From contig NZ_VIVQ01000002.1 of assembly GCF_007829035.1 (NCBI RefSeq), positions 1 through 64,000 of the forward strand: a stretch of 64,000 bases of DNA. Reading direction: 5' to 3'. This DNA is from Rudaeicoccus suwonensis (GTDB lineage Bacteria; Actinomycetota; Actinomycetes; Actinomycetales; Dermatophilaceae). The position numbers and the translations under genes were made by a program. A model generated the notes under the pieces. It had not been told where the DNA came from, made no database searches, and saw only the letters and a list, made by a program, of their open reading frames with translations. Of this stretch, positions 7,084 through 46,168 are shown piece after piece. Position 1 is the first letter of the stretch. Each line of letters starts with the position of its first letter.

Positions 7084-7084
7084 G

Positions 7085-8008: not shown

Positions 8009-8061
8009 ACTGGTCGGCTGTCAAAACCGGTGAACTCTGTGTGCTGGCCACCGCATGCAAA

Positions 8062-8137
8062 ACGCCACCTCGGGGAACCCGTCTGCCGACATACGTCGCT
8101 GTAGCGACCGGTCGGCAGGGGCACCCCGAAGTGGCGT
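8062..8137. terminator. Large multi-stem inverted repeat between convergent ligD and lsr2
   Basis: Nested complementary blocks: 8062-8068 with 8131-8137, 8070-8075 with 8124-8129, 8083-8090 with 8111-8118, and an inner hairpin 8094-8099 with 8102-8107. Together they fold into one interrupted stem of about 75 nt. Its position between convergent genes makes a bidirectional terminator the simplest role. Confidence 0.7.
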
Positions 8138-8161
8138 CCTACGTAAAGCCTCGGGTGATTC

Positions 8162-8491
8162 TCAGCCGTTTGCCTTGGCGTAGGCCTCTTGCAACTCGGC
8201 CGAGACACGACCGCGGTCGCTGACCTTGTATCCGTTGGAACGGCCCCACTCACGAATCTTGTTCAGGTCGCCGCGAGGGTTGCTCTGGCGAGTGGCGCCA
8301 GTCGTACGCGCGCGGTTCTTCATGGGACGTGCATAGCCGATCCACTTCGCGAAAGAGTCACGAAGCTTTGCAGCATTCGCCGCGGCGAGATCGATCTCAT
8401 ACGTCTTGCCGTCGAGCGCGAAAACGACAGTCTCGGATGCTTCCGAGCCGTCGATGTCGTCCTCTAGCAGGATCTGCACCCGCTGAGCCAT
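8162..8491 (-). CDS. lsr2: Nucleoid-associated protein Lsr2
   Basis: 109-residue actinobacterial H-NS analogue. The N-terminal oligomerisation domain begins MAQRVQILLEDDIDGSEA. The C-terminal DNA-binding domain ends in IREWGRSNGYKVSDRGRVS with the RGR minor-groove hook, and binds AT-rich DNA to silence horizontally acquired genes. A strong Shine-Dalgarno AAAGGAGG lies just upstream of the chosen ATG, so the longer frame to 8554 is rejected. It sits convergently to the ligD genes. Confidence 0.97.
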   Translation of the reverse strand: MAQRVQILLEDDIDGSEASETVVFALDGKTYEIDLAAANAAKLRDSFAKWIGYARPMKNRARTTGATRQSNPRGDLNKIREWGRSNGYKVSDRGRVSAELQEAYAKANG

Positions 8492-8596
8492 CAGGCCTCC
8501 TTTAGTCACCATTGTTTTGTCAGTAACCAACGCTAACACAAAGCAGCACGGCAAACGGCACGCCTTCCAGAGGTTGCCGTAATAGCAATTGATGAA

Positions 8597-8770
8597 TCAG
8601 AGGTTTTTAGCCTCGGGCGCGGTCGGCTCTTGTTGAATGGTGTGCTCCTGCTCCCACTGCGCATGTGCGACCCGCTCTCGGCGATCGCCTTCCATCATGT
8701 GCTTGAGGATGATGTACAACAGATAGAGCAGGCCGATCGACGGCAACAAGGTCTCTATGTACGGCCACAC
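8597..8770 (-). CDS. Small single-pass membrane protein (57 aa)
   Basis: A GTG-started frame of 57 codons between the MGMT gene and lsr2, in the same direction as both. Residues 4-24 (ETLLPSIGLLYLLYIILKHM) form a clear hydrophobic helix. A charged segment EGDRRERVAHAQWEQE follows, then a polar tail ending TAPEAKNL. Short membrane proteins with a helix followed by a DRRER-like stretch recur beside lsr2/lysS loci in actinobacteria as far as I recall. It starts 30 bp after the MGMT stop, so it may be co-transcribed with the repair genes. The only start available after the upstream stop is this GTG; its ribosome binding site is weak. Confidence 0.7.
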   Translation of the reverse strand: MWPYIETLLPSIGLLYLLYIILKHMMEGDRRERVAHAQWEQEHTIQQEPTAPEAKNL

Positions 8771-8800
8771 GCAAACGATCGTATGCCCGCATCCTGTGCG

Positions 8801-9307
8801 TCAGAACAAAGCCCCCTCCACGGGCGGGCGTTCCAGGTTCAGCAACCATGCCTTTCGTTCGATCCCGCCGCCGTAACCGGTCATGCTGCCGGAGGCGCCC
8901 ACCACCCGGTGGCAGGGCACCACGATCGAGATCGGGTTGCGGCCGTTGGCCAGCCCTACTGCCCGACTGCTGCCCGGCGCGCCGATATGGGCCGCCAGTT
9001 GCCCGTACGACCACGTCTGGCCGTACTCGATGTCGAGGAGTCCGCGCCATACACGGCGTTGGAAATCGGTGCCGTGCTGAGCCAACGGCAGATCGAAGTC
9101 GCGGCGCTCGCCGGAGAAATACTCCGTCAGCTGACGAGCCACCTCGGCGAGCACGTCGTCGTCGGGTGACACCGCCGGCCCGAAGGTCTGCGTCGGCGGG
9201 CGGTGACGGTGCTGCTGCATGAAGATGCCACTAAGCGCGTCATCCTCGGCCACCAGTGTCAGCACGCCGATCGGCGTGTGTTCCATCGTGGTGTGTCTGG
9301 TCGTCAT
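8801..9307 (-). CDS. ogt: Methylated-DNA-[protein]-cysteine S-methyltransferase
   Basis: 168-residue suicide repair protein that removes O6-alkylguanine. The active-site PCHRV (cysteine acceptor) is followed by the [13 protein letters not shown] loop. The helix-turn-helix contains the [13 protein letters not shown] segment with the arginine finger and asparagine hinge. The ATG at 9307 overlaps the stop of the upstream Ada-AlkA gene by 4 bp (ATGA), giving a two-gene alkylation repair operon. Confidence 0.96.
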
Positions 9308-10803
9308 GACGACGCCTCCTGATTCGGGAGTCGGTTGATGTCGTGGGAACCACTCGCCCACAGGTGTTGAACGGCGTATGCACGCCAGGGCCGCCACGCC
9401 GCAGTCGCCTGCTGCAGCGCGGCGCCTGCGACCGGCATACCGAACCGTTTCAGTGCGGCGCGCACACCGAGGTCGGACGCTATGAAGGCATCCGGATCAC
9501 CCAGAGCCCGCATTGCGACGCCATCGACGGTCCACGGCCCGATCCCGGGCAGTGCGTCGAGCGCGGCGCGTGCTGCACCCCAGTCCGCGCCGGGAGACAG
9601 ATCGAGGCTGCCGTCCGCAAGTGCCGCCGCGAGGATCCGCACCGTGCGCCTTCTGCTCGCGGGCATCGCCAGGTGTTCGTCCGGTATGTCGGCGAGCGCC
9701 GCCGGTTCCGGGAACGCGTGGGTCAGCCCACCACCCGGGTCCTGGATCGGGCTGCCGTATGACGTGGCCAGCCGGGCCGCATGGGTCCGGGCGGCACGCG
9801 TGGAGATCTGCTGCCCGAGCACCATCCGTATGGCGAGTTCGGCACCGTCGACCGTGCGCGGAACCCGTCGACCCGGTTGTGCCTCGACCAGCGGACGCAG
9901 CACGGGGTCCGCCCGCAGGTGGGCGTCGATCGCCCACGGGTCTGCATCGAGATCCACCAGGAACCGGCACCGGCTGACCGCAACCGTCAGGTCGCGCAGA
10001 TCCTGCAACCACAATCGAGCAGCGACGTGGTCCGACTCGGGCCGCAGGGCCACGACAGCGAAGCCGTGCGGCAGCCGCACCGCCCTGCGATATGCGCCGT
10101 CGTGCCACTCCTCGACGCCTGGTACGGCCGTCGCCACAAGGTGGCCGAAGAGTCCTTCGACCGCAAAGGGTGTGCGAAACGGCAGCCGGAGCGAAACGTG
10201 GTGCCAGGCGCCTGTCAGACCGCCCGCGCCGGCATCAGCGGCCGCTGCCCGGCTGCGCAACTGCCGCGGGGCGGTCGCGAAGACCGCCTGCACCGTGTCG
10301 TTGAACGACCGGATGCTGCCGAAGCCCGCCGCGTGTGCGACGTCGGACAGCGGCAAGGTGGTCGTCTCGATCAGCACCCGTGCGGTCTGGGCCCGCTGCG
10401 CCCGGGCAAGGGCGACTGGTGTCGCGCCGAGTTCGGCGCGCACCTCGCGCTCGATCTGACGCGCGCTGTAGCCGAGCCGCCGCGCGAGCCCCTGCACGCC
10501 GTCGCGGTCGACGACCCCGTCACCGATCAAGCGCATCGCCCGCGCGACGAGGTCAGCTCGCAGATTCCACTCCGGCGACCCGGGACTGGCATCCGGCCGG
10601 CATCGCTTGCACGCTCGGAAGCCGGCCGTCTGAGCAGCGGCTGCGCTCGGATAGAACGTGATGTTGGCGGCCTTGGGCGGGGTTGCCGGGCAACTGGGCC
10701 GGCAATAGATCCCGGTGGTGCGCACGCCGGTGAAGAACCATCCGTCGAAGCGCGCATCCCGTGACCGCACGGCCGCCAGGCACACGTTGTGTTCCGCTAT
10801 CAC
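9304..10803 (-). CDS. alkA: Ada methyl-phosphotriester domain/AraC regulator fused to AlkA DNA glycosylase
   Basis: About 499 residues in three parts. The first is an Ada zinc domain with YCRPSC and CKRC (four zinc cysteines, one of them the phosphotriester acceptor). The second is an AraC-type helix-turn-helix region ([15 protein letters not shown] and [19 protein letters not shown]). The third is the AlkA fold with helix-hairpin-helix [19 protein letters not shown] and the catalytic aspartate in FIASDLGV. It is expected to sense alkylated DNA, induce the operon and excise 3-methyladenine-type lesions. The GTG at 10803 is the best start by comparison with homologues; the frame stays open further upstream without similarity. 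It is coupled to the MGMT gene by a 4-bp overlap. Confidence 0.92.
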
Positions 10804-10903
10804 GAGAACAGTCTGGGGGCGGACACCGACAATATCTAGCAGAAAAGCGACATGACGCTTTTCTGCCAGTTGGCACCGGGAACAGTGCCAGCAAAGCGAA
10901 CCG

Positions 10904-11764
10904 TCACGCCTGAGCCGGGCCCAGGTGCAACGGCAGATTGTCGATGAGCCGGGTGGTGCCGACCTTCGCGGCGACGGCGAGCAACGCCGGTCCGCGATAC
11001 CACTCCGGCACTTGTTCGAGGGTCGAGGGATGGACGAGCACGAGGTAGTCCACGAGCGCAAGCGGCTCTCGCACCAGCACGTCACGAGCCGCTCGGCGGA
11101 CCGCGGCCGGACCAGCCGTCGCATGCTGCTCGCCGGCCCGCAATGCAGCCGAAAGACACTGTGCCACTTCACGATCGGCGGGCGACAAGTAGGTGTTGCG
11201 ACTGCTGAGAGCGAGCCCGTCGGGCTCGCGGACGGTCGGAACAGCGACGATCTCCACAGGGAAGTCCAGATCCTGCACCATTCGCCGGATGAGCAGCAGT
11301 TGCTGGGCATCCTTCTGCCCGAAGAAGGCCAGGTCGGGCCGCATCAGGTGCAGCATCTTGGCCACGACGGTCAGCACCCCGTCGAAGTGGCCGACGCGGG
11401 AAGCACCCTCCAGCACATCACCGAGACCGCCGGCGCTGACGCGCACACCGGGTTCACCATCGGGATAGACGACATCCGGACTCGGCGCGAACACGAGCGA
11501 GACGCCCTCCCGCGCGCAGATCTCGACGTCGGATTCGAGGGTCTGGGGGTATCGCGACAGATCCTCGCCTGCGGCGAACTGCAACGGATTCAAGAAGATC
11601 GTCACGACGACGTGGTCCGCCGCGGAGGCTGCCTGCCTGATGAGTTCGGCGTGGCCCTCGTGCAGGGCCCCCATCGTCATCACGACACCGACAGTCCCCT
11701 CGAGCCGCGCCCGAGCGGCGTGAAGGTCCTGACGGGTGTGTGCGATCACAGGGGTGGCGGTCAT
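10904..11764 (-). CDS. panC: Pantothenate synthetase
   Basis: 286-residue ligase joining pantoate and beta-alanine with ATP. The HIGH-like motif appears in [10 protein letters not shown], and the KMSKS-equivalent region in [11 protein letters not shown]. The FFGQKDAQQ and [10 protein letters not shown] segments are also typical. Its start overlaps the stop of the upstream DUF2520 gene by 4 bp, so the two are co-translated. This pairing with a ketopantoate-reductase-like Rossmann protein is conserved in actinobacteria. Confidence 0.97.
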
Positions 11765-12648
11765 CGGTCCTCGTCGTCCTTCGGCTGCAGGATCTCCAAC
11801 ATCGGAGTGACACTTTCGGCGGGCATCGCGCGGCGCGAGATGGCACGTAACGCCGTCGCAGTCGCGATGGCACGGTATGCCATCGCGATGTCCTCAGGTT
11901 GCCGGCTCACCGCATCCAGATGTGCGCTCACCGTGCCGACGTCGCCACGGATGATCGGCCCGGTGAGTGCGCGGTCACCGTGCTCGAGCGCGTTGTCGAT
12001 CGCGGCCTCGATCAGGGGGCGCAGGATCACTGCCGGGTTGTCCAGCCCGGCGGCGCGCAGCATCTGCTGCGCCTGTGCAACCAGAGTCGTGACGTGGTTG
12101 GCGCCATGCGACAGAGCGGCGTGATACGTCGAGCGCTGCTCCTCTGCCAACCGGAAGGGTTCACCGCCAAGATCGAGCACCAACGCTTCGGAGACCAGAT
12201 CCGCGCCCATCGACGCCGTCACCGCCATCGGTGTGCCGACCAGTCGCGGCAGATCCTTGGCCGTGCCGGAGAAGGTCATCACCGGATGCAAGGCAACGGC
12301 GTCGCCACCGGCGGCAACCACGGGCGCGAGCACGTCCACACCGTGAAAACCACTGAAATGGATGGCCAGTCGCCCCCCGGCCCACGCCCTCGTGGCCGCG
12401 AGACCGGTCACCAACGAGGCGATCTCGTCGTCCGGCACCGCGAGCAGCACCACGTCGGCAACGGCCACGACGTCAGGCACCTGCAGCACGGGCACACCGG
12501 GCAGCAGTCGCGCCGCCCGCTCCCGAGATGCCTCGCTGACCGCACTCACACCGACGATCTCGTGGCCGGATGCCCGGAAGGCCGCACCTATCACGGCGCC
12601 CACCCGGCCGGCGCCGATGACTCCGATGCGCAGGGTCGGCTCAGGCAT
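11761..12648 (-). CDS. DUF2520 Rossmann-fold protein (ketopantoate-reductase/F420-reductase-like)
   Basis: 295 residues. The N-terminal dinucleotide-binding motif [13 protein letters not shown] is followed by a Rossmann domain. A DUF2520-type helical domain follows ([10 protein letters not shown], then [16 protein letters not shown]). The family is often encoded beside panC and is suspected to act as a ketopantoate reductase substitute, but no reaction is proven to my knowledge. ATG 12648 is chosen; an in-frame GTG two codons upstream is equally plausible. Confidence 0.85.
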
Positions 12649-12720
12649 ACTCACCCGCACGACGCTAGTCGGCTCGTCGGCGCGACGGCCAGCCGGGGCG
12701 ACTGACCTAGCCTGTGTGGC

Positions 12721-13680
12721 ATGGCATGGCGGACCTGGCAGCAGGCATGGCAGGACAGCCTGTATGCCGACGGCGGGTTCTACCGCCAATCCGCAGGTCC
12801 AGCAGCGCATTTCGCGACGTCAGCTCAGGGCATACCAGGTTCGGGTCCATTGCTCGCGAGTGCCGTCGTGGCGCTCACCCGACGGTACGGGTGCGACTCA
12901 GTCCTCGAAATCGCCGCCGGTCGCGGCGAGTTCCTCACCGAACTCGCGCGCACAGCCCCAGACCTTCGCCTGCACGGCGTCGACGTCGCACCGCGCCCTG
13001 ACGGGCTGCCGGACGGCGCCGCCTGGACGACGGCGGTCGGCGGCGCCGGGCTTCCGCCGACGCTGCACGGGCTGCAGAACACGCTCGTCTTCGCCCACGA
13101 ATGGCTGGACGTGGTGCCCTGCCCCGTCGTGGAGTTCGACGCGCACGTATGGCGCATCGTCGAGGTCGCCGACTCCGGCGAGGAACGGCTGGGCGATCCA
13201 GTCGATGACGGGGATCTTCAGTGGTTGCAACGCTTTTGGCCAGGCTCGCCACAGCAGGGCGATCGCGCCGAGATCGGCTCCACCCGGGATGCGGCATACG
13301 CGACGCTGCGGGAAAGAGTCGTCAGCGGCGTCGTGGTCGTCGTCGACTACGGCCACCTCGCACACGAGCGCCCTGTGCACGGCACCCTCCTGGGCTTCCG
13401 CGACGGTGCAGCCTGCCCGCCACTGCCCGACCGCAGCACCGACATCACCGCCCACGTGGCGATCGACTCGCTCGCCGGCCCGGAGGTGGAGCGCGTGCGA
13501 CAGCGGCAGGTCTTCGCCCAACTGGGCATCACCCGGCCGGCACCGGAGATTGCGTTGGCCGCGACCGACCCACCGGCATACCTGCAGGCCCTGGCCGAGC
13601 GAAGCGCACTCGCCACATTGACAAGCGCAGACGGTCTGGGCGACTTCTGGTGGCTGCTCGAGAAACGGCCCGGCGACTGA
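12721..13680 (+). CDS. MidA/NDUFAF7-family SAM-dependent methyltransferase
   Basis: 319 residues with the SAM-binding pattern SVLEIAAGRGEFL and the family signatures FAHEWLDVVP and VVVVDYGH of the MidA (DUF185) group. The human relative NDUFAF7 dimethylates an arginine of the complex I 49-kDa subunit (NDUFS2). A homologue of that subunit, NuoD, lies three kilobases downstream on the same strand. The bacterial function is therefore inferred to be NuoD methylation. The N terminus is shorter than in eukaryotic proteins. Confidence 0.8.
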   Translation: MAWRTWQQAWQDSLYADGGFYRQSAGPAAHFATSAQGIPGSGPLLASAVVALTRRYGCDSVLEIAAGRGEFLTELARTAPDLRLHGVDVAPRPDGLPDGAAWTTAVGGAGLPPTLHGLQNTLVFAHEWLDVVPCPVVEFDAHVWRIVEVADSGEERLGDPVDDGDLQWLQRFWPGSPQQGDRAEIGSTRDAAYATLRERVVSGVVVVVDYGHLAHERPVHGTLLGFRDGAACPPLPDRSTDITAHVAIDSLAGPEVERVRQRQVFAQLGITRPAPEIALAATDPPAYLQALAERSALATLTSADGLGDFWWLLEKRPGD

Positions 13681-13694
13681 CCGCTCGCGAGGTG

Positions 13695-14678
13695 TCAGCT
13701 CTGCGGACGGAAGGTGGCCAGGACCGCGTCGGCCTGGGCCTGCGTGAGGACGCCGGGCTGGCCGATGTTGCGCACCAGGACGAGCATCGCCGAGGATCCG
13801 TTCACCTTGAAGCTGACCGTGGTCACCACGACCTGCTTGGCCGCCGAACACTTGCCAGGATCCCCGATCGTCGCGGTGATCGAGTATTCCGCGGCCTGAA
13901 TCGTGCCCTGGTTCACCTTGATATATTTCACCGGGGTGATCTTGGACTCCGCCGCGTACGAGTTGTCGCTCTTGATCGCGAGCGCGTCAGCAAACTTCTT
14001 GGTCGCAATGGGCCCAGCCGATGTCGGATCAGAAGTCCCGATGCCGTACAGACCAATCGTCGCGAGCGATTGGGTCTTGTCGGCAGCGCACCAGCCGAGA
14101 CCGTAATTCGCCGGGGCCGCAACGGTCGCAAGTGGATTGCCCTGACTATCGGCCCACCCGGCGATGGTGCCCTGCGACGACAGCTTCCAGCCGGCATCGG
14201 GCACGTCGTACTGTCCCGGCTGATAACTGCCACCGGACTGCGACTGCCAGCCGGCTTCGAGCGCGCGCGCCCCACTGGCGATGGTCGGATTGGTCCACGT
14301 TGTCGCCGTGGGCGGTGCAAGCGAGGTGGTCGACGCCGATTGCGCGGCCTTGGCAGACCCGCCGCCGCCGCCCTTGAGCGCGAAGACGAGCCCTCCGCCG
14401 ACAGCGACCACAACAACCGCCACGACACCGGCAATCACTTTGACACTGGTGCGTTTCGGCCGCTTCGGTGACAGCGAGCCGACCGTTTCGGACGACACCT
14501 GCTCGTACCGGTTGTAATACCCCGACTGCGGATTGGCCGAGGTCGCTCCGGAGCTGGGGCCGGTAGCACCAGGATCCGACGACGAGCCGTATGACCCCGC
14601 GCCGGTCCCCTCCCAGCTGCTCGGCGACTGGTCACCCTGACCGTACGGCGGCCAGCCGCCATCCCCTTGGTTGCTCAC
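13695..14678 (-). CDS. Single-pass membrane protein with Gly/Ser/Pro-rich N terminus
   Basis: 327 residues. The first 75 form a low-complexity cytoplasmic region rich in Gly, Ser, Pro and Tyr. A basic patch PKRPKRTS precedes a transmembrane helix at about 79-101, followed by a poly-Gly linker and an extracellular domain of about 200 residues. The domain contains three cysteines (WCAADK, GKCSAAK region) and ends AVLATFRPQS. The layout resembles actinobacterial septum or cell-wall accessory proteins, but I do not recognise the extracellular domain. It ends 14 bp from the convergent methyltransferase gene. Confidence 0.75.
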   Translation of the reverse strand: MSNQGDGGWPPYGQGDQSPSSWEGTGAGSYGSSSDPGATGPSSGATSANPQSGYYNRYEQVSSETVGSLSPKRPKRTSVKVIAGVVAVVVVAVGGGLVFALKGGGGGSAKAAQSASTTSLAPPTATTWTNPTIASGARALEAGWQSQSGGSYQPGQYDVPDAGWKLSSQGTIAGWADSQGNPLATVAAPANYGLGWCAADKTQSLATIGLYGIGTSDPTSAGPIATKKFADALAIKSDNSYAAESKITPVKYIKVNQGTIQAAEYSITATIGDPGKCSAAKQVVVTTVSFKVNGSSAMLVLVRNIGQPGVLTQAQADAVLATFRPQS

Positions 14679-14788
14679 CCGAGAAGATTACAAGCAGAGT
14701 CCCCCGGCGCAGGACCTCGAGATTCCAGCAATTTCCCAGCCGCAATCCATACCGTGCCGACCACTTCGATGGACCGAGGGGACGCCGC

Positions 14789-15025
14789 ATGCCGCGATCC
14801 GGAGCCACGGACGCCGGCGAGAACGCTCGCGGCGTTCGGATCGGTGGCGTCCTCATGATTCTGGGATTCACCCTCGCCGTCCTGCTCGGCCTGCTGACCT
14901 TCCTGTCGATGTTCGGCACCCACCCGCAATTCGAGTTGCTACCGCTCGTGGCCGCCACCTTCGCGGTGGGCGCCTTGGGCGCGGGCCTTCGCCAGCGCGG
15001 AACGGCAGACCATCAACGGCGGTGA
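14789..15025 (+). CDS. Small two-helix membrane protein (78 aa)
   Basis: Start ATG with GAGGGG 8-9 bp upstream. It contains two hydrophobic helices: residues 19-41 (GGVLMILGFTLAVLLGLLTF) and 49-68 (ELLPLVAATFAVGALGAGL), joined by a short loop. The basic tail is RQRGTADHQRR. No family is recognised. It lies alone between divergently and convergently arranged genes. The longer frame starting at 14591 overlaps the upstream gene antisense and is unlikely. Confidence 0.6.
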   Translation: MPRSGATDAGENARGVRIGGVLMILGFTLAVLLGLLTFLSMFGTHPQFELLPLVAATFAVGALGAGLRQRGTADHQRR

Positions 15026-15051
15026 CCATCGCCTCCCGTCGCGCGCTTCCC

Positions 15052-15612
15052 TCACCCGTTCGACTGCCGCGCCCGGTAGGCCGCGACATTCGCTCTGTTC
15101 CCGCATCCTGCTTCGCAATAGCGCCTCGACCTGTTCTTCGACAGATCCACCAACACGTTGTCGCAGTCCTCGGCGGCGCAGGTGTTCAGGCGGGACAACT
15201 CACCGGCGCGGATGACGTCGACGACCGCCATCGCCGCCTCGACGATCCAGCGTGATGCCAGCGGCGCGTCGGCCGGCGTGGCATGCAGGTGCCAGTCCCA
15301 TCCGTCATGGCGCACCAGCTGCGGCAGGGCCCGCTCATCGGCGAGCACGTCATTGACCCACGTCACGGCGTCGACCTCGCCCATCGACCACAACTCGCGC
15401 AATCGCGGCCGGATCGCGCTCACCGCGGCACGCTCCGCCGCGTCATACGTGATCGGACCGCTCCACTCCCACTGCTGCACGAACGCCTGGTATGACGCAG
15501 CTTCCGCCAGTGGATCCGGATCTTCGTCAGCGGTGTTGACCAGCGCGGCCGCAGATTGCAGCGCGACCTCCGTGTCATGCGCAAAAAGCACTTTGACTCC
15601 TGTCCTTTGCAT
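15052..15612 (-). CDS. CGNR zinc-finger transcriptional regulator with ABATE domain
   Basis: 186 residues. The N-terminal stress-induced/ABATE-like domain starts VLFAHDTEVALQSAAALVNT. The C-terminal zinc finger has CAAEDC and YCEAGCGNR, the latter naming the family. Such proteins are putative DNA-binding regulators. It is divergent from an EamA transporter with only 68 bp between starts, the usual sign that it controls that exporter. Ligand unknown. Confidence 0.85.
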   Translation of the reverse strand: MQRTGVKVLFAHDTEVALQSAAALVNTADEDPDPLAEAASYQAFVQQWEWSGPITYDAAERAAVSAIRPRLRELWSMGEVDAVTWVNDVLADERALPQLVRHDGWDWHLHATPADAPLASRWIVEAAMAVVDVIRAGELSRLNTCAAEDCDNVLVDLSKNRSRRYCEAGCGNRANVAAYRARQSNG

Positions 15613-15680
15613 CCCCTACCATCATGGCAGACACCGGCATAAGTCCATTTTACCCATTACACGAAACCAGGAGGTGCACC

Positions 15681-16700
15681 GTGACTGCAACCGAGATGAC
15701 CCCTGTCGACCCCACCCTCCGGTTCCAGACGCCGGAGCCGCTCCCGGTCAACGCCGCGGACGCTACAGCGACGCACACCGGTGGCCGGTCTGCACTCGCG
15801 ATCGCCATTGCGTCCGCGGCGGCTTTCGGCAGCTCCGGCACCTGCGCGAAGGCTTTGCTGGACGCGGGCTGGTCACCTGCCGCAGCTGTCACCGCACGCA
15901 TCGCGCTGGCGGCGCTCGTTCTCGCCATACCGACCGTGCTCGCCCTGCGCGGACGCTGGCACCTGCTGCGCAGCCGCGTCCTGCCGATCGCGATCTATGG
16001 CCTGACGGGAGTCGCCGGTTGCCAGTTGGCGTACTTCAACGCCGTCAACCACCTCTCGGTCGGTGTCGCGCTGATGCTCGAGTACCTCTCCCCGGTACTC
16101 CTCGTGCTCGGCGTCTGGGCCTGGAAGCGCCGCCGGCCCGCGACGCTGACCCTCGTCGGCACCACGACCTGTGTGGTCGGCCTCGTCCTGGTGCTCGACG
16201 TCTTCGGCGGTGCGCACCTGTCGGCGGTCGGCATCGCGTGGGGTCTGGGCGCGGCGGTCTGCTCCGCGGGCTACTTCGTGCTCGCCGGCCGCTCGGACGA
16301 CGAGTTCCCGCCACTCGCGCTCGCCGGAGTCGGTATGGCGGTCGGCGCTGTGCTGCTGGGCGTGCTGGGCGCGCTCGGCATCCTGCCGATGCACGCGACG
16401 ACCCGCGACACGATCTTCGCCGGGCACCACACGTCCTTTCTGGTGCCGTTGGTGGCGCTCGCAGTGATCGCGACTGCCTTCGCCTACGCGACCGGCGTGA
16501 TGTCCGCGCGCCGTCTCGGCACCACCGTGGCGTCCTTCGTCGCGCTCGCCGAGGTGTTGTTCTCGGTCGTCTTCGCCTGGCTGCTGCTCGGTCAGCTGCC
16601 GTTGCCGGTGCAATTGGCCGGCGGCGTGCTCATCGTGGGCGGCGTGGTGCTGGTGCGACTGGGTGAACTGCGCGGGGCCTCCCGGCATACCGCACGCTGA
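15681..16700 (+). CDS. EamA-family (DMT superfamily) transporter
   Basis: 339 residues with ten predicted transmembrane helices in two EamA repeats (the first around [20 protein letters not shown], the second from residue 190). DMT proteins of this kind export amino acids or other metabolites. The start is the GTG at 15681, preceded by AGGAGG at the right distance; earlier in-frame codons lack a ribosome site. The first 35 residues are polar and cytoplasmic. Probably under control of the divergent CGNR regulator. Confidence 0.88.
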
Positions 16701-16717
16701 CTGGCACACTGGGGGCC

Positions 16718-17878
16718 ATGTCGACCCGTGAGCTGACCGTCGGAGTAGGCGCGGGCGGCCTCGCAACGGCCGACATGGTCCTCAACATCGGCCCTCAGCA
16801 CCCGGCGACCCATGGCGTGCTGCGGCTGCGGATCACCCTCGACGGTGAGCGCATCAAAGCCGCCGAGCCCATCGTCGGCTACATGCATCGCGGCGCCGAG
16901 AAGTTGTTCGAGGTCCGCGACTACCGCCAGATCATGGTGCTGGCAAACCGGCACGACTGGCTGTCGGCGTTCTCCAACGAGATCGGTGTCGCGCTGGTGG
17001 TCGAGCGGATGCTTGGCATGGACGTCCCAGAACGCGCCACCTGGACCCGCACATTGCTGGCCGAACTCAACCGGATCCTGAACCACTTGATGTTCCTCGG
17101 GTCCTATCCGCTCGAACTCGGCGCGATCACCCCGATCTTCTACTCCTTCCGCGAGCGCGAGGAGTTGCAGGCGGTCATGGAGGAGATTTCCGGCGGCCGG
17201 ATGCACTACATGTTCGGCCGCGTCGGCGGCCTGCGCGAGGACCTGCCGACCGGCTGGCTCGGCCGGGTGACCGCGGCGATCGCTGCCGTCCGGCGCCGAC
17301 TGCCGGATCTGGAGGGCATGCTGCTCGGCAACGAGATCCTGCACGCCCGAACCCGTGGCGTCGGCATACTCTCCCCGGAAATCATTGCCGCGTATGGCGT
17401 TTCGGGCCCCATCGCACGAGCCTCCGGTGTCGATGTCGACCTGCGCCGCGACCAGCCCTATCTGTCGTATGCCGAGCTGTTCGCCGACGGCGGCCCCGGC
17501 CGTGTCGTGACGCGCTCGGCCGGCGACTGCCTGGCCCGTCTCGAAGTGCTCATGGAACAGGTCCACGTCAGCCTCGACATCGCCCAGGAGTGCGTCGACC
17601 GGCTGCAGACGCTCGGCGCCGGTCCGGTCAACGTGAAGTTGCCGAAAGTGCTCAAGGTGCCCGAAGGCACCGACTATCTGGCCACCGAGAATCCGCTCGG
17701 TTTCAACGGCTATTACCTCGTCTCGCGCGGCGACAAGACACCGTGGCGACTCAAGCTGCGGTCGGCGTCGTTCAACAACGTCGCAGTGCTCGGCGAACTC
17801 TTGCCGGGCACACTGCTGGCCGACATGGTGGCCATCCTCGGATCGACCTTCTTCGTGGTGGGCGACATCGACAAGTGA
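16718..17878 (+). CDS. nuoD: Stand-alone NADH-quinone oxidoreductase subunit D (NuoD/49-kDa type)
   Basis: 386-residue subunit at the quinone site of complex I. It shows [23 protein letters not shown] (R58), [22 protein letters not shown] and DLRRDQPY, and ends [12 protein letters not shown]. It is 17 bp downstream of the EamA gene. No other nuo genes are nearby, so this is either a second copy or a separated subunit serving a smaller hydrogenase-like complex; many actinobacteria carry such an isolated nuoD. R58 corresponds to the arginine methylated by NDUFAF7 in the mammalian protein, and a MidA homologue lies close by. Confidence 0.92.
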
Positions 17879-37650: not shown

Positions 37651-38562
37651 ATGGACACCTTCGTGCGCGACGGCCTGACCTTCGACGTGACCGACAGCGG
37701 TCCGGCCGGCGGCGAGGTCGTGATCCTGCTGCACGGCTTCCCCCAGGACAGGCGCGCGTGGGACAAGGTGACGCCCGAGCTCAATGCGGCCGGCCATCGC
37801 ACCCTGGCACCGGATCAGCGCGGCTATTCGCCTCGCGCGACGCCGAAGAGCCGCACGGCATACGGGCTCGATCAGCTCGCCCTGGACGTCATCGCCCTTG
37901 CCGATGCCGCAGGCGCCGCCCGCGTGCACGTCGTCGGTCACGACTGGGGTGGTGCCGTCGCGTGGCACCTTGCGAGCCGGCACAGCGATCGGGTTGCCTC
38001 GGTGACGGTGCTGTCGACGCCACATCCGGCCGCGATGGGTTGGGCATTCACGCACAGCGACCAGTGGCGCAAGAGCGGCTACATGGTGTTCTTCCAACTG
38101 CCATGGATCGCCGAGCGATCAGTGCACCGCCGGCTGCCCGGACTGTACGTCAAGACCGGCATGACGGCCGAGGATGCCGCGAAGTATGCCGAGAAGTTCG
38201 CCACGCCCGCCTCGCTCAGCGGGGGCCTGGGCTGGTATCGCTCCATGCCGGCCAGCAAGGCGATGCTTTCGTCGATGAAGCGGTCGGCGAAGGCCAAGCG
38301 GGCGGCTGCGCCGTCATCTGCCGGCGCAGCCACGGCGGCGCCGCGTAGTCGCAAGGTGCAGGTGCCGACCACCTACGTGTGGGGCAGCCATGACTTTGCG
38401 CTTGGCCGTGCCGCAGCAGAGAAAACCGCCGAATTCATCGGCGGGGACTACGAATTCGTCGAGGTGCCGGACGCCGGGCACTGGCTGCCCGAGGTCAATG
38501 CCGACCTGGTGAGCGAGGCGATCCTGCAGCGCATCACCTCAGCAGGGGCGACCGACAACTGA
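37651..38562 (+). CDS. Alpha/beta hydrolase of the epoxide hydrolase/dehalogenase type
   Basis: 303 residues. Oxyanion motif HGFPQ (29-33), nucleophile elbow GHDWGG with aspartate D98, acid in WGSHDFALG and catalytic histidine in DAGHWLPE. An aspartate nucleophile with HGxP and two cap tyrosines points to an epoxide hydrolase rather than an esterase. A low-complexity Lys/Ala/Ser insert (about residues 210-230) precedes the acid strand. Substrate unknown. Upstream gene is divergent. Confidence 0.85.
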   Translation: MDTFVRDGLTFDVTDSGPAGGEVVILLHGFPQDRRAWDKVTPELNAAGHRTLAPDQRGYSPRATPKSRTAYGLDQLALDVIALADAAGAARVHVVGHDWGGAVAWHLASRHSDRVASVTVLSTPHPAAMGWAFTHSDQWRKSGYMVFFQLPWIAERSVHRRLPGLYVKTGMTAEDAAKYAEKFATPASLSGGLGWYRSMPASKAMLSSMKRSAKAKRAAAPSSAGAATAAPRSRKVQVPTTYVWGSHDFALGRAAAEKTAEFIGGDYEFVEVPDAGHWLPEVNADLVSEAILQRITSAGATDN

Positions 38563-38931: not shown

Positions 38932-39834
38932 ATGACCCGGAAGAACCCCCTGCTGCAACACTCTCTCGCGGCGATCGGCGCCGTGACCGCACTTGCGACG
39001 GCGACCCTGGCGATCGGCGCGCCCGCTCACGCCGCGACCGTCCGCCCCAGCGCCACAGCCCCGTTCAACTACGTCGCGATGGGCGACAGTTACAGCGCCG
39101 GTTCCGGCCTGCTGCCGCTGAGCCCGGGTGTCAACCCGCTGTGCCTGCAGTCGACGCTCAACTATGCGCACCTGATCGCCAGTTCGCAGAAGTACAACCT
39201 CAAGGACGTCACCTGCGGCGGCGCGGACACCTCGAACTTCACCAGCGCGCAGTACCCGATCGTCACACCGCCTCAGTTGAACGCGCTGTCGTCCAGCACG
39301 CAACTGGTCACGATGACCATCGGCGGCAACGACAGCGACGTCTTCCTCGACACGATCCTGGAGTGCGGCTCCGCCGGCATCGCAACTCTCGGCACCGGCG
39401 ATCCGTGCAAGACGCTCTACGGCTCGAAGTTCGTCGACACCATCAACACCTCGACCTACCCGAACGTCGTCAAGGCGCTGCAGGAGGTCCGGGCAAAGGC
39501 TCCCAACGCGCGCATCGCCATCGGCGGCTACCCGCGGATCCTGCCCGCATCGGGCTCCGGATGCTTCCCGCAGATGCCGATCGCCAGCGGCGACCTGGCC
39601 TATGTGAACGACATCGAGACCGCTCTCAACAGCGCGATCCAACGCGCGGCCGCCAAGGTCGGCGTGACGTATGTCGACATGACCGGTGTGTCGACCGGCC
39701 ACGACGCCTGCCAGGCCGTCGGCACCCGCTGGGTCGAACCAGCGCTTTTTGCAACGCAATTCGTGCCGGTGCACCCCAACGCTCTCGGCGAGCAGGCCTA
39801 TGCGCGGGCGTTCGAAGCCGCACTCGGACTCTGA
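38932..39834 (+). CDS. Secreted SGNH/GDSL-type lipase or esterase
   Basis: 300 residues with a Sec signal peptide (cleavage near AHAAT). SGNH blocks: GDSYSAGSG (S53), glycine in a TCGGADT stretch, GGND and the final HPNALGE with the catalytic histidine. Six cysteines suggest disulfides as in Streptomyces secreted lipases. GGAAGG lies 7 bp before the ATG. Substrate (lipid, acyl ester) cannot be told. Confidence 0.92.
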   Translation: MTRKNPLLQHSLAAIGAVTALATATLAIGAPAHAATVRPSATAPFNYVAMGDSYSAGSGLLPLSPGVNPLCLQSTLNYAHLIASSQKYNLKDVTCGGADTSNFTSAQYPIVTPPQLNALSSSTQLVTMTIGGNDSDVFLDTILECGSAGIATLGTGDPCKTLYGSKFVDTINTSTYPNVVKALQEVRAKAPNARIAIGGYPRILPASGSGCFPQMPIASGDLAYVNDIETALNSAIQRAAAKVGVTYVDMTGVSTGHDACQAVGTRWVEPALFATQFVPVHPNALGEQAYARAFEAALGL

Positions 39835-39956: not shown

Positions 39957-40718
39957 ATGACAATCGGTCACGTCCTGGTGGGCTCCGGCCCGATGCACGT
40001 CATTGCCCTGCACGGGTGGTTCGGTTCGGCGCAGGGGTGGGGTGAGTTGCCGGAGCGGCTCGACACCGACCGCTGCACGTTCGCCTTCCTGGACTACCGC
40101 GGTTATGGCAGTCGCCAGGACGAGACCGGCGATCACAGCATCGCCGAGATCAGCGCCGACGCGATCGCGCTGGCCGACGAACTCGGTTGGGATCGTTACG
40201 CATTGGTGGGTCACTCGATGGGCGGGTCGGCGATGATGCGCGTCTTCGCCGACGCGCCCGACCGGGTCACGGCGATGGTCGGCGTCTCACCGGTGCCGCC
40301 GACAGGCATTCCGTTCGACGACGACTCGTGGGCGCTGTTCGACGGCGCTGCCGCCAGCGACGACAACCGCGCCGCGATCATCGACTTCACCACCGGCAAT
40401 GTGCGCCCGCAGGAGTGGGTGCAGCAGATGGTGCGCTTCTCGGTCGACAACTCCCGGCGGGATGCCTTCGGTGCGTACCTGCCCTCGTGGGGCAAGACCG
40501 ACTTCCACGACGAGGTGCCGCGCGTCGAGGTGCCGTTGCGGATCATCGCCGGAGCGCGCGACCCGGCGCTCGGGCCGCAGACCTGCGAGGCGACCTGGCT
40601 GCAGATGTACCCCGGTGCCGTCATGAATGTGATCGACGACGCCGGCCACTATGCGATGTACGAAGCGCCGGACGAGTTCATGACCCACCTGAACGACGCC
40701 CTCGGCATACACGACTGA
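39957..40718 (+). CDS. Alpha/beta hydrolase (serine nucleophile)
   Basis: 253 residues. HGWFGS oxyanion motif, nucleophile GHSMGG (S87), acid in GARDPALG and histidine in DAGHYAMYE. It is 6 bp upstream of a cytochrome P450 gene in the same direction, so the two likely act in one pathway, for instance ester or lactone hydrolysis and hydroxylation. AGAGG precedes the ATG. Confidence 0.88.
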   Translation: MTIGHVLVGSGPMHVIALHGWFGSAQGWGELPERLDTDRCTFAFLDYRGYGSRQDETGDHSIAEISADAIALADELGWDRYALVGHSMGGSAMMRVFADAPDRVTAMVGVSPVPPTGIPFDDDSWALFDGAAASDDNRAAIIDFTTGNVRPQEWVQQMVRFSVDNSRRDAFGAYLPSWGKTDFHDEVPRVEVPLRIIAGARDPALGPQTCEATWLQMYPGAVMNVIDDAGHYAMYEAPDEFMTHLNDALGIHD

Positions 40719-42045: not shown

Positions 42046-42672
42046 TCAGCCCTGTGATCGCGCGGCTGAGCGCCGCGTCGCCGGCACGCTCAGATCGATG
42101 ATCACGTCTGCCATTTCGGCGAGCTGATTGTCGTTGGTCGTGATCAGCACGGCGGCACCGTCGTCGGCGGCGTGACGGAGTTGGTCGAGGACGATTTCGC
42201 GGTTCTTGGGATCGAGAGCCGATGTGGGCTCATCGGCGAGGATGACGGCGGGGTGGTCGGCCGTGGCGCGAGCGATCGCGACGCGTTGACGCTGTCCGCC
42301 GGAGATCTCGTCGATGAGGTGGTTGGCGACAGCGGTGACACCGAAGGTCTCCAGCGCTTCGCCGGTGAGGCGGCGCGCGTCGGCGAAGGCGACACCGCGA
42401 GCGATCAGTGGCAACAGGACGTTTTCGGCGACCGTCAGAGATTCACAAAGATCATAGGTTTGAGTGATCACGCCGCAATGGTCGGTGTCGATGCGCACCG
42501 TGCCGGCGACCGCGTCGAGTTGGCCGCGACACAGATCGATGAGCGCCGACTTCCCGCTCCCCGCGTGCCCCATCACGATGAGGATCTGCGTGCTGGAGAC
42601 GCGCAGGTCGAGGTCGGTGAAGATCGGTTGCCCGAGCGTGTCATGCACGGTGACGGCAGTGAGATCGATCAT
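42046..42672 (-). CDS. ABC transporter ATPase with intact signature but altered H-loop
   Basis: 208-residue LolD/MacB-type nucleotide-binding domain. Walker A is GHAGSGKSA (35-43), signature ISGGQRQRVAIARA is perfect, and Walker B VILADEPTSALD has the catalytic glutamate. The switch histidine is replaced: the sequence reads ITTNDNQ instead of VTHD. It overlaps the second ATPase gene by 4 bp and belongs to a three-gene exporter operon with one FtsX-type permease. Confidence 0.93.
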   Translation of the reverse strand: MIDLTAVTVHDTLGQPIFTDLDLRVSSTQILIVMGHAGSGKSALIDLCRGQLDAVAGTVRIDTDHCGVITQTYDLCESLTVAENVLLPLIARGVAFADARRLTGEALETFGVTAVANHLIDEISGGQRQRVAIARATADHPAVILADEPTSALDPKNREIVLDQLRHAADDGAAVLITTNDNQLAEMADVIIDLSVPATRRSAARSQG

Positions 42673-43532
42673 GCTGGCCCCTCGGGTGCGCTTCGCCGGA
42701 CGATGAAGGTGTGTGGGTCCGGGCCGGCAGTCAACGACACCACGGTGCCTGGCGGGAAGTCCGCGAGGATGTCGTCGGTCAGCGGGACGCTGCCGTCTTC
42801 GCGGACGAAGACCTGGGTGTTGCCGCCCTGGGCCTCCATCCGGATGCGCCCGTCGCGGATCGTGACGACCCTTGCCTTGAGCGCGGTGGCCACATCCAGA
42901 TCATGTGTGACCGCGATGATGGTGGTGCCCAGCTGCTGGTTGGCCCGTGACAGCGCTGCCGTGATTGCGCGGACATCGTCCCTGTTGAGATTGCTGGTCG
43001 GCTCGTCGGCGAGCAATACGGATGGACTGGTGGCAATGGTGGCGGCGATCGCCGCCAGTTGCCTGGTTGCCGCGGACACGGCGTGGACAGCTTGATCCCT
43101 CAGCTCGGCCGAGATGCCGACGACATCCAGCGCTGCCTCGGCGTCGATCCGGCCGGCCACCCGCTTGGGCCAGCCGAGTTCGATGTTTTGCCGGACCGTC
43201 AGATAAGGCAACAGGTTCTTGCGGACGTCCTGCAGCAGGACTGCGAGCCCGGTGCCACGAGCCAGGTCGAGTTCTGTTCCGGTGGCATTGCTCAGGTCGT
43301 GGCCGGCGACGCGGACGCGGCCGGCGGTCGGCGGAGTGAGACCAGCGAGCACGCTGAGCAACGTCGATTTGCCGGCACCGGACGGACCGACGAGGACCAC
43401 GATCTCGCCCTCCCGCACGGCCAGGTTGACGCCGGACAGCGCGGCGACGGAGCGCCCGTCGACGGTGTAGATCTGCACGAGACCTTCGACGCCGACGATC
43501 GGGGCCACCGGTTCGGTGATCGGGGCGCTCAT
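42669..43532 (-). CDS. ABC transporter ATPase with degenerate signature motif
   Basis: 287 residues. Walker A GPSGAGKST (49-57), Walker B VLLADEPTSN and switch histidine VTHD are canonical. The signature motif is VSAATRQLAAIAA in place of LSGGQxQRVAIA. A C-terminal extension of about 50 residues (EDGSVPLTDDILADFPPGT region) is absent from the partner ATPase. Together the two give one consensus and one degenerate ATP site. ATG 43532 overlaps the permease stop by 4 bp. Confidence 0.92.
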   Translation of the reverse strand: MSAPITEPVAPIVGVEGLVQIYTVDGRSVAALSGVNLAVREGEIVVLVGPSGAGKSTLLSVLAGLTPPTAGRVRVAGHDLSNATGTELDLARGTGLAVLLQDVRKNLLPYLTVRQNIELGWPKRVAGRIDAEAALDVVGISAELRDQAVHAVSAATRQLAAIAATIATSPSVLLADEPTSNLNRDDVRAITAALSRANQQLGTTIIAVTHDLDVATALKARVVTIRDGRIRMEAQGGNTQVFVREDGSVPLTDDILADFPPGTVVSLTAGPDPHTFIVRRSAPEGPA

Positions 43533-46168
43533 TCGGAGACCTTCGCATGAGAGTCGTCGACGCTGCTGGTGAGTCGCCATCCGAAACCGGCCGCAACCAC
43601 GACGAGCGCGAGCACCAGCAAGACCGCTGCTGCTGAGCCAGGTAGCCAGGAGAAGCCCGTGCGGGTCAACGGCTGAGCAGGCGGGCTCGACCACCACAGC
43701 ATCGTGGGGCCCGTCAACCAGGCCGCCACGGGAGCAGTGATCGCGCCGATCACGCTGCCCACCAGTGCCAGCAAGGCGAACTCACCGATCGTGGCTCGCC
43801 GCAACATCCGGCGGTGCACCCCTCCGGTGGCCAGCGCGCGCAGGTCCCTGCGTCGATCGCCGGCCGATGCGACAGCGATGAGCGCCACACTGGCCAAAGC
43901 CGCCAGAACCGACAGCGCCGACACCACGAGGTTCAGTTTGGAGGCCCACGCCGTGGCAGTCGCGTCATACCCGGCGCGGATCTGCCGGGTGGTCATGATG
44001 CTGACCTGATCGAAGCCCTCGTTGTTCAACGCTGCGGTGAGCCGGTGCAGGGCAGCGGGATCGTCCGTGGACGAGAACACCTGGAAGGCGAGGTTGTCTG
44101 TTCGATCTCCTTGCGCCAGAAGGTATTTCAGATTGACCACGATCGTCTGGGCGCCGGCTCCCGGCACGTACGGCAGCACGGACACCACCTTGAACGGGCC
44201 CGACTGATCGTTCATCGTCGGCCCGTCGATCACTTGGCCGACCGACGACGGGGTGGTCCAGGCGGACGCGATCGCGGCCGGTTCATCGGCGGACCCTCCG
44301 GCCAGGGCAGCCCACGGCACCTGCTGTGCCAGGCCCGTTCGCGCGCCGATGCGTTGCATGTCCGACGGCACGACACCGAGCACGCTGATGCCGATCGAGG
44401 AGTCGGCGGTGATCTCCACCGCCGGGCTGAACTCGCGGTGATGGGGATCGACGGAATCAACCGCCGCAACCAGGCCCGGGCCGGTCGGCGAACCGGAGTC
44501 TGCTGCAGCATCGATCACCACCGAAGCACCCAGGTCGGCGGCAGTGCGAGTCGCGCGATTCTGCTCACCGCGCGAGTAGACACTGATGCTCAGCACCATC
44601 AGCGCAGCCGTGACGATCAATGTGGTCAATGCCAACGCTGCACCGGCTCGGCGTCCCAGTTGCGCCGCCGCCAGCGCACCGGTCGCCGCCCGAGCCGCCA
44701 GAAGACCACGAACAGCCCACGCCGCCACCGGCGCCAGCCCGACCGCCACGACGAGCGCCACGAGTCCCGCCAACAGCACTGGCGTGACCTGCACCAGCGC
44801 ACCCGTCACACTGTGCGTCGCGGTCAGCACGACCCCGATCACGCAGACCGCCGCGAGCACGGCCAGCGGAGCTGACACCGCGATGCCACGCCGCCGCGGT
44901 GGCCTGGCTCGAAGCAACAGGGTGATGCTCGAACGCCCCATGGCCCACCAGCACGCGAGCCAGACGCCCAAGGCCACCAACGCTGCACCGCATCCGGCGA
45001 TCAGCGCCCACCAATCCCATGCCGGCCCGATGCGCGCAGGAAGCCACCAGACACGGGTCAACTGGTCGACGCCGTATGCCAGCGCCATACCTGTCAATGC
45101 ACCCAGAACGTATGCCGGAGCGAACTCCGCCGCGCCCAGCCGAAGCACCCCGACGGTGCCATTGCCGCGCATCTTCAAGACAGCAGCTTCGCCGCGGCGG
45201 GCATCGGCCAGGAAGCGAACAATCTGGAGCAGCAGGATCAGCAGCACCGTTCCCAGTTGCACGAACAACACCGGAAGGATCTGTCGCACCTGCGTGACGT
45301 CCTCATGGGTCTGCGACTGCACCTGGGACAGCGACTCGTAGACCGACACGTTGTGCGACGCAGTCGCCTGCAATCCGGCCGTCGCGGCAGCGAGAGTCTG
45401 CGGTGTCAACGCGGTGTATTTCAACGGAAATGTCGCCGACGTCGCCACATTCGCCCACTGGTGCGCTCCGGACGTGGTCAATTGACCGGCGAACGTGGCG
45501 CTGTCCGTAAGAAGGGTCGCTGACGCCTCCGTGCCACCCTTCGGGCTCTGCATGTAGCGACCCGGATCGTTACCACCCCAGAAAGCATCGGCCGACGCCG
45601 AATACACGCCGACGACCGTCACCGGCAGCGGGGCGTCAAAGGGGCCTGCCCCATATGTCGAGGCAAGAGACACACCGAGATCGACGGTGGACCCCAACCG
45701 CAGGTGCTGTAGCGACGCCTGCTGCCACGTGGCCGTCGACATCATCACCTGGTTCGGCCCGTTCGGGCAGCGCCCCTGCACGATCCGCACCTGCCCGCAC
45801 CCACCCTGGGTGTATTGCACCGACACGTAGACCGACATCGCCGGCCAGTTGGCCAAGACCGTCGACGACTGGGTCGGCGGCCCCGTCACCGCCCGCACCC
45901 TCGGATCGAGCCACGAACTCACCGTGGTCGCCGGCTCCAGGCCACCACCTGACGTCGTGAGTTGCACCTCGCTGCCCACAGTTCCTTCAGAACGTGCGTG
46001 GAACTGAATCAACGCGTATTCGAACGACCTGCTCAGCAGCGGGACCGCAGCGGCCGAGGCCACCATCAAGCACACAGTCAACCCCAGCAGAACCCCCTGC
46101 AACCATCGCGACCGACGGGCAATCCCCGATAACAGCACCAATCTCCCCCACATCCGGATGGCAGCCAC
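43529..46168 (-). CDS. FtsX/MacB-type ABC transporter permease
   Basis: 879 residues. An N-terminal helix (about 24-45) is followed by a large extracytoplasmic domain (46-300). A four-helix region around 300-510, a second extracytoplasmic domain (530-700) and final helices with the FtsX-like pattern (DRRRDLRALATGGVHRRMLRR) complete the chain. One polypeptide therefore holds two FtsX units. Substrate unknown; relatives move lipids, lipoproteins or peptides. It heads the operon with the two ATPases. An ATG at 46153 is an alternative start. Confidence 0.9.
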   Translation of the reverse strand: MAAIRMWGRLVLLSGIARRSRWLQGVLLGLTVCLMVASAAAVPLLSRSFEYALIQFHARSEGTVGSEVQLTTSGGGLEPATTVSSWLDPRVRAVTGPPTQSSTVLANWPAMSVYVSVQYTQGGCGQVRIVQGRCPNGPNQVMMSTATWQQASLQHLRLGSTVDLGVSLASTYGAGPFDAPLPVTVVGVYSASADAFWGGNDPGRYMQSPKGGTEASATLLTDSATFAGQLTTSGAHQWANVATSATFPLKYTALTPQTLAAATAGLQATASHNVSVYESLSQVQSQTHEDVTQVRQILPVLFVQLGTVLLILLLQIVRFLADARRGEAAVLKMRGNGTVGVLRLGAAEFAPAYVLGALTGMALAYGVDQLTRVWWLPARIGPAWDWWALIAGCGAALVALGVWLACWWAMGRSSITLLLRARPPRRRGIAVSAPLAVLAAVCVIGVVLTATHSVTGALVQVTPVLLAGLVALVVAVGLAPVAAWAVRGLLAARAATGALAAAQLGRRAGAALALTTLIVTAALMVLSISVYSRGEQNRATRTAADLGASVVIDAAADSGSPTGPGLVAAVDSVDPHHREFSPAVEITADSSIGISVLGVVPSDMQRIGARTGLAQQVPWAALAGGSADEPAAIASAWTTPSSVGQVIDGPTMNDQSGPFKVVSVLPYVPGAGAQTIVVNLKYLLAQGDRTDNLAFQVFSSTDDPAALHRLTAALNNEGFDQVSIMTTRQIRAGYDATATAWASKLNLVVSALSVLAALASVALIAVASAGDRRRDLRALATGGVHRRMLRRATIGEFALLALVGSVIGAITAPVAAWLTGPTMLWWSSPPAQPLTRTGFSWLPGSAAAVLLVLALVVVAAGFGWRLTSSVDDSHAKVSE

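Follow-up and report, generated by a model that had tools for sequence, protein, structure and literature searches.

Organization of the P/A2/A1 operon

Within a 64,000 nt stretch of the Rudaeicoccus suwonensis genome (contig NZ_VIVQ01000002.1, positions 1–64,000; hereafter the window, to which coordinates refer unless a locus is named) the minus strand carries three genes, here called P, A2 and A1, which encode a permease and two different ATP-binding cassette (ABC) ATPases. P (43529–46168, GTG start, 879 aa) specifies a double-FtsX permease in a single chain, A2 (42669–43532, ATG start, 287 aa) an ATPase whose C-terminus is extended by about 55 aa, and A1 (42046–42672, 208 aa) a short ATPase, the last product of the operon. 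The P/A2 and A2/A1 overlaps are four bases each; the open reading frame listed by the program for A2 starts earlier, at 43697, inside P. An earlier first-pass annotation of this DNA numbered the ATPases by coordinate, and its 'first' ATPase is A1, i.e. the final gene. We consider it very probable that P, A2 and A1 would form one type VII ABC complex in which A1 and A2 are an obligate heterodimer, with one of the two composite ATP sites (site I) as the working one.

Complementary sequence changes in the two ATPases

An ATP bound in an ABC dimer is sandwiched at the interface: one subunit supplies the Walker motifs, Q and His, and its partner the signature and D-loop. The motifs of A2, all on the minus strand as are those of A1, are GPSGAGKS (Walker A, 43365–43388), Q, the degenerate signature VSAAT (43065–43079), LADEP (Walker B), the D-loop SNLN (42984–42995), which lacks the final Asp, and VTHD, with the switch His (42900–42911). 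Those of A1 are GHAGSGKS (Walker A, 42547–42570), Q, ISGGQ (signature, 42292–42306), LADEP, SALD and TTND (42130–42141), in which Asn stands for the switch His. That A1 combines an intact signature with this Asn, and A2 intact Walker A, Walker B and His with a degenerate signature, had been claimed in the first-pass annotation and can be read directly from these strings; the altered D-loop of A2 and the lack of an A-loop aromatic in A1 had not been recorded there. Because a head-to-tail dimer pairs the His-less side of A1 with the degraded signature and D-loop of A2, all defects in the window would fall within one composite site (site II), and since the intact Walker, Q and His side of A2 meets the intact signature of A1 in trans, site I would be intact.

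These defects exceed what chance would give, because all 33 distinct control ATPases have the six motifs checked (Walker A, Q, signature, Asp-Glu, D-loop Asp and His). The controls comprised 34 rows: ATPases beside four other FtsX permeases of the same genome (each permease with one adjacent ATPase; 97 ABC matches in the genome), FtsE of related genomes and two FtsE-like rows; L172 repeats L140, and L186 and L187 lie below the FtsE cut-off. Among 39 other ABC rows in the loci described below, partial ones included, some have variant motifs, e.g. the YSMGM signatures of L039 and L064.

One-sided conservation across related loci

A permease-profile search (threshold 1e-30, with overlapping genome draws) gave matches in 70 of 186 genomes of the family, 24 of 396 of the order, 27 of 296 and 34 of 393 in two draws of the class, and 8 of 396 of the phylum; matches in G032, G029, G033, G383 and G074 were left out of the locus set. 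The first set comprises 96 loci (the window, L031–L045 and L048–L127), L046 and L047 having been dropped before the counts as lying on the same contigs as L092 and L091. By the score rule a complete pair, with exactly one A1 and one A2, is present in 87 of the 96 loci (all except L038, L072, L080, L086, L092, L097, L100, L115 and L125), in the order P-A2-A1 in 62 of the 87; the A1 of L108 ends at the contig end, just past the signature. Eighteen further stretches, added under a looser score rule after the prediction for site I had been set down, gave 11 more complete pairs (L196–L199, L202–L206, L208 and L213). No complete pair was present in L200, L201, L207 or L209–L212, and an opposite-strand ABC ATPase at 15544–16614 of L204 was left out although it passed the looser rule. 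Sets of P, A2 and A1 recur in many genomes and amount to 98 complete pairs; the complementary substitutions, for which the first-pass annotation had proposed a search, are present in some of these pairs and not in others.

Site I is intact in 95 of the 98 pairs, damaged in two and partly unreadable in one: the A2 Walker A is consensus in 97/98, the A2 His is present in 98/98 and the A1 signature fits xSGG[QE] in 97/98 (within the first 87 pairs, A2 Walker A 86/87 and Q, Asp, Glu and His each 87/87; A1 signature 86/87 and D-loop Asp 86/86 readable). Both exceptions can be located, one in the A2 Walker A of L044, where the N-terminal part of the permease is missing, and the other in L127, a distant relative with LSAGQ in A1. 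At site II the A2 signature fits xSGG[QE] in only 25/98, the final D-loop Asp of A2 is present in 66/98, the A1 His in 78 of 97 readable pairs and a consensus A1 Walker A in 90/98 (within the first 87 pairs 16/87, 58/87, 69/86 readable and 81/87, respectively, with A1 Q in 84/87 and Glu in 85/86 readable). The A-loop residue, scored in the first 87 pairs, is Tyr in every A2 (87/87) and Tyr or Phe in 49/87 A1s; as the aromatic is also missing from A1 of some relatives with otherwise canonical motifs, this feature may have preceded the rest of the asymmetry.

Eight A1s have a non-consensus Walker A, six without the Lys (L034, L043, L102, L113, L199 and L205) and two without the glycines (L098 and L099), and all eight keep LSGGQ. 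From the six Lys-less A1s the His has gone in every case, Q in five and the catalytic Glu in three (L034, L199 and L205), the only pairs in which this Glu of A1 is replaced. The prediction was borne out in that site I is intact in all 11 new pairs. Two of them, L199 and L205, have A1s without Walker A, Q, catalytic Glu and His that yet read LSGGQQQR, opposite an A2 with a degenerate signature, and judged by their motifs are natural knock-outs of A1; in the remaining nine the A2 signature is canonical and the A1 His present. Every His-less A1 (19/19) is paired with an A2 signature that does not fit xSGG[QE] (73 such pairs); where the A2 signature is canonical, the His is lost in none of the 24 pairs that can be read (Fisher p 0.003, uncorrected for relatedness). 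The one-sided motif decay in the 98 pairs, together with the six Lys-less A1s that retain their signature, strongly supports, at the level of sequence motifs, an obligate heterodimer in which one site is consensus and the other degenerate, the arrangement first proposed from the window alone.

That A1 and A2 form separate homodimers, alternating on P or serving different permeases, appears to us very improbable. Type VII ATPases described in the available portions of the literature are homodimers (MacB, PMC10094684; Bacillus subtilis complexes, PMC11466899), in keeping with the earlier statement that LolD/MacB-class ATPases usually are, and permeases outnumber ATPase pairs in 15 of the 96 loci, so that ATPases may be shared. 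However, an A2:A2 dimer would have two degraded signatures and an A1:A1 dimer two His-less sites, six of the A1s would give dimers devoid of any Walker A Lys, and one A1 and one A2 are found in each of the 87 complete first-set loci.

Nor do we find it credible, beyond a very slight chance, that the operon is decaying under relaxed selection and that the asymmetry is incidental. Occurrence is indeed patchy (27/296 class and 8/396 phylum genomes) and permeases are truncated or split in some loci (L044, L096 and L103), but site I is almost perfectly preserved, and third codon positions are the most variable in the genes compared (seven A1, four A2), differing about 1.5 to 4 times as much as first or second positions, which is not a formal selection test. 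Between the A1s of L098 and L099, with their non-consensus Walker A, the codon-position differences are 0.25, 0.19 and 0.43 (first, second and third). The preservation of site I and the codon-position pattern led us to reject a pseudogene reading.

A heterodimer in which both sites hydrolyse ATP, the changes being tolerated tuning, is in our estimation unlikely. It would accord with the Walker A, Q and Glu retained by A1 of the window, with the 24 relatives that have a canonical A2 signature and the A1 His, and with the milder A2 signatures (LTPGQ), which retain the second Gly; against it stand the six A1s that have lost both the Walker A Lys and the His, a loss to be anticipated were site II not needed for hydrolysis.

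Origin of the asymmetry

Orthologues with restored motifs had been named in the first-pass annotation as what would speak against its proposal. They do occur: in 24 pairs the A2 signature is canonical and the A1 His retained (16 of these also have the A2 D-loop Asp), and in our reading they represent an ancestral two-site heterodimer, with the proviso that the root of the tree is weak. The tree was built from 405 columns of the first set, with motif columns removed and L108 left out, and with support from the Shimodaira–Hasegawa-like approximate likelihood ratio test; the root has a support of 30 and the outgroup is not a single clade. The minimum number of changes on this tree is 23 for site II (signature 3, His 6, Walker A 4, D-loop 7 and Q 3) and two for site I (signature 1, Walker A 1 and His 0). 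Since distant relatives mostly keep the main motifs of both sites, the asymmetry probably arose within the family, and the likely path leads from a two-site gene pair through loss of the A2 signature to loss of the A1 His and finally of the A1 Walker A.

Several points weigh against a heterodimer that works through site I. The assignment of motifs to sites I and II follows general ABC geometry and not a model of the P/A2/A1 complex; the catalytic Glu is intact in both window ATPases (LADEP), and an A1 with Asn for His facing a weak A2 signature might still hydrolyse slowly. Many A2 signatures scored as degenerate are mild (LTPGQ, LSQGQ and, in L111, LAGGE). One family (f1) predominates in the first set, many pairs are close kin, and a test on independent pairs was not significant (five pairs, about two changing in the same way and none in the opposite, median p 0.5). 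Finally, the best solved chains for A2 are the peptide-importer ATPases Rv1281c and DppD, which are not of type VII.

The permease and the class of the complex

That one permease chain holds two FtsX units agrees with the Pfam result: PF02687 matches P above its cut-off in two stretches, which places P in the FtsX fold, and NCBIfam models assigned it to no family. Hydropathy gave nine segments above threshold, and the segment-free stretches (residues 45–298 and 529–747) may correspond to extracellular domains between transmembrane helices TM1 and TM2 and between TM7 and TM8. This fits, short of proof, the ten-helix, two-domain layout given for YbbP in the consulted part of PMC12646458. The P profile matched the solved chains YtrF (8.6e-08), PsdB (0.001), LolF and BceB, all weak matches, and YbbP was absent among the solved chains matched. 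Predicted models of P (window, L046 and L047) and A2 (window and L047) had a mean predicted local distance difference test score of 35.5 and 33.4, respectively, and were discarded.

The best solved chains for A1 are ABCB1 and FtsE. The best NCBIfam models for A1 and A2 include FtsE, L_ocin_972, LolD and DevA, and the 25 among the matches listed are all below their cut-offs. We assign both ATPases to their class tentatively, and mainly from the neighbouring permease, because the solved-chain matches are mixed and the NCBIfam matches below cut-off.

Two to four permeases lie beside a single A1/A2 pair in 15 of the 96 loci (L093, at 6705–17237, L033, L039, L042, L045, L064, L089, L105, L106, L117–L121 and L123), some second copies being low-scoring, a pattern suggestive of one engine shared among them. 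In L038, L092 and L097, the last near a contig end, the stretch covered contains a permease and neither of the ATPases. Searching its own genome with P gave no further copy; Flexivirga caeni has two related loci, the best segment of P being 51% identical (contig search with P alone). A switch of the extra Flexivirga permease (L046) to a conventional ATPase was considered and given up, as that ATPase follows another permease frame, double-FtsX-like as judged from its sequence.

Working model and relation to known systems

We suggest that P, A2 and A1 assemble into a MacB/FtsX/YbbP-like complex, most simply with one copy of each, a stoichiometry taken from the family. The coupling helices of MacB/FtsX proteins touch only the nucleotide-binding domain (NBD) of their own protomer, according to the part consulted of a review (PMC8277102), and each half of P should therefore hold its own ATPase. 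Site I, made up of the A2 A-loop, Walker A, Q, Walker B and His and the A1 signature and D-loop, would bind and hydrolyse ATP; site II, made up of the Walker motifs and Asn of A1 and the degraded signature and D-loop of A2, would hold at most a static ATP in this organism. Such an ATP is possible in the window and is probably absent from the six Lys-less A1 lines. One productive hydrolysis per cycle would close and open the NBD pair, and P would use this motion to move its two predicted extracellular domains (mechanotransmission, by analogy with the family), the probable action being extraction or hand-over, at the outer face, of a hydrophobic or lipid-linked molecule, a cargo at which we can only guess. 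We give an even chance to the wider proposal of a type VII machine running on a single ATP, with A1 a pseudo-ATPase, or on the way to becoming one, that donates its signature and D-loop, is nucleotide-free in some lineages, and shares in an engine serving up to four permeases in some genomes.

It is possible, and in our view somewhat doubtful, that the complex is a sensor or regulator like BceAB, or an activator of an extracellular enzyme like FtsEX or YbbAP-TesA, and not an exporter; such a role would be compatible with the heterodimer. The permease superfamily is the same, there are weak profile matches to YtrF, PsdB, LolF and BceB, and 2.2 kb past A1 there is a GDSL lipase gene, Escherichia coli YbbAP acting with the hydrolase TesA in the available account (PMC12646458). 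On the other hand, no partner gene was recognized beside the sets, where flank clusters are unannotated, and the flanks of other loci yielded no relative of the GDSL protein.

TAP is a degenerate-site heterodimeric exporter, and exporters of this kind have a type IV fold with NBD and transmembrane domain fused. Here the NBDs are encoded by separate genes and the permease is of FtsX type. Two different NBDs with one consensus and one degenerate site, as in TAP-like exporters, are nevertheless predicted for the window and most of the 98 pairs. Degenerate sites of that kind often lack the catalytic Glu, which A1 of the window keeps (LADEP). As set out in parts of PMC7756269 and PMC7828314, TM287/288, TmrAB and BmrCD are degenerate-site heterodimeric exporters that build, as here, one consensus and one degenerate composite site from two NBDs; such heterodimers are well known among type IV exporters (PMC7756269), and the available portion of that source makes no mention of MacB, FtsX or type VII.

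Among type VII systems, as far as the available portions of the sources describe them, E. coli YbbAP-TesA (PMC12646458) likewise has a single-chain, two-FtsX permease with separate ATPases, and two extracellular domains with ten transmembrane helices, the layout we infer for P. It uses two identical copies of YbbA, whereas here two different ATPases show complementary motif loss, and it has TesA as a partner, whereas no conserved TesA-like partner was recognized in the flanks here. MacB, LolCDE, FtsEX and BceAB (PMC5985334, PMC11466899) have the FtsX-type permease in common with P, but their ATPases are described as homodimers with equal sites, unlike the pair proposed for A1 and A2; the type VII rows tabulated for B. 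subtilis list one ATPase gene used twice (PMC11466899). A homodimer with two equal sites is usual for type VII, without strictly defining it, and the complementary losses in A1 and A2 point to a departure from it. The actinobacterial Rv0986/Rv0987 of Mycobacterium tuberculosis, in the portion of PMC7761784 consulted, has a permease with a predicted 10 to 12 transmembrane helices and two extracellular domains, and one ATPase gene (Rv0986) as against two here. No degenerate-site heterodimer in the FtsX class is described in the consulted parts of the open-access literature searched, a scope that excludes subscription journals and preprints and makes this weak evidence of absence. The degenerate-site logic is thus known from type IV exporters, and its occurrence in the FtsX class is, on that weak evidence, apparently new.

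How many ATPs a MacB/FtsX-type machine spends per stroke is not settled, and its determination has been called essential (in the portion consulted of PMC8062640). The loci described here offer a graded natural series on homologous permeases, from pairs with the main motifs of both sites to those in which the Walker A Lys of the second site has gone. Comparing members of this series would directly test whether one hydrolysis suffices for mechanotransmission, and also whether the degenerate-site solution originated independently in a different fold.

The A2 extension and neighbouring genes

From the His motif to the C-terminus A2 has a median of 81 residues, compared with 28 in A1, the extension (42669–42875, minus strand) being common to A2 relatives. 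Its core reads DGSxPLP...PPGT; the stretch DGSxPL...FPPGT (42732–42797, minus strand) is similar in relatives and has no Pfam match that reaches its cut-off. An AbrB-like identity was dropped, since the only Pfam matches (E 0.057 and 0.16) are far below cut-offs.

In the clustered flanking frames, unannotated and covering local synteny only, no conserved partner gene was recognized; the clusters span up to 20 loci, and many consist of frames of odd composition. The GDSL/SGNH lipase gene (38932–39834, plus strand, opposite to A1) encodes a likely signal peptide, and no relatives of it were found in the flanks of other loci. Two alpha/beta hydrolases are encoded near the operon (37651–38562 and 39957–40718). 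Directly downstream of A1, and convergent with it, lies a cytochrome P450 gene (40725–42041, plus strand), as it does in the three nearest relatives (L091, L093 and L095); the window P450 is only 28–30% identical to theirs, which are 77–84% identical to one another. Loci of genus g161 (L077, L078, L079, L081–L085 and L096) have near the transporter a fused double-NBD ATPase, both halves with an intact Walker A and signature, which we take to be perhaps part of an energy-coupling factor (ECF)-type importer.

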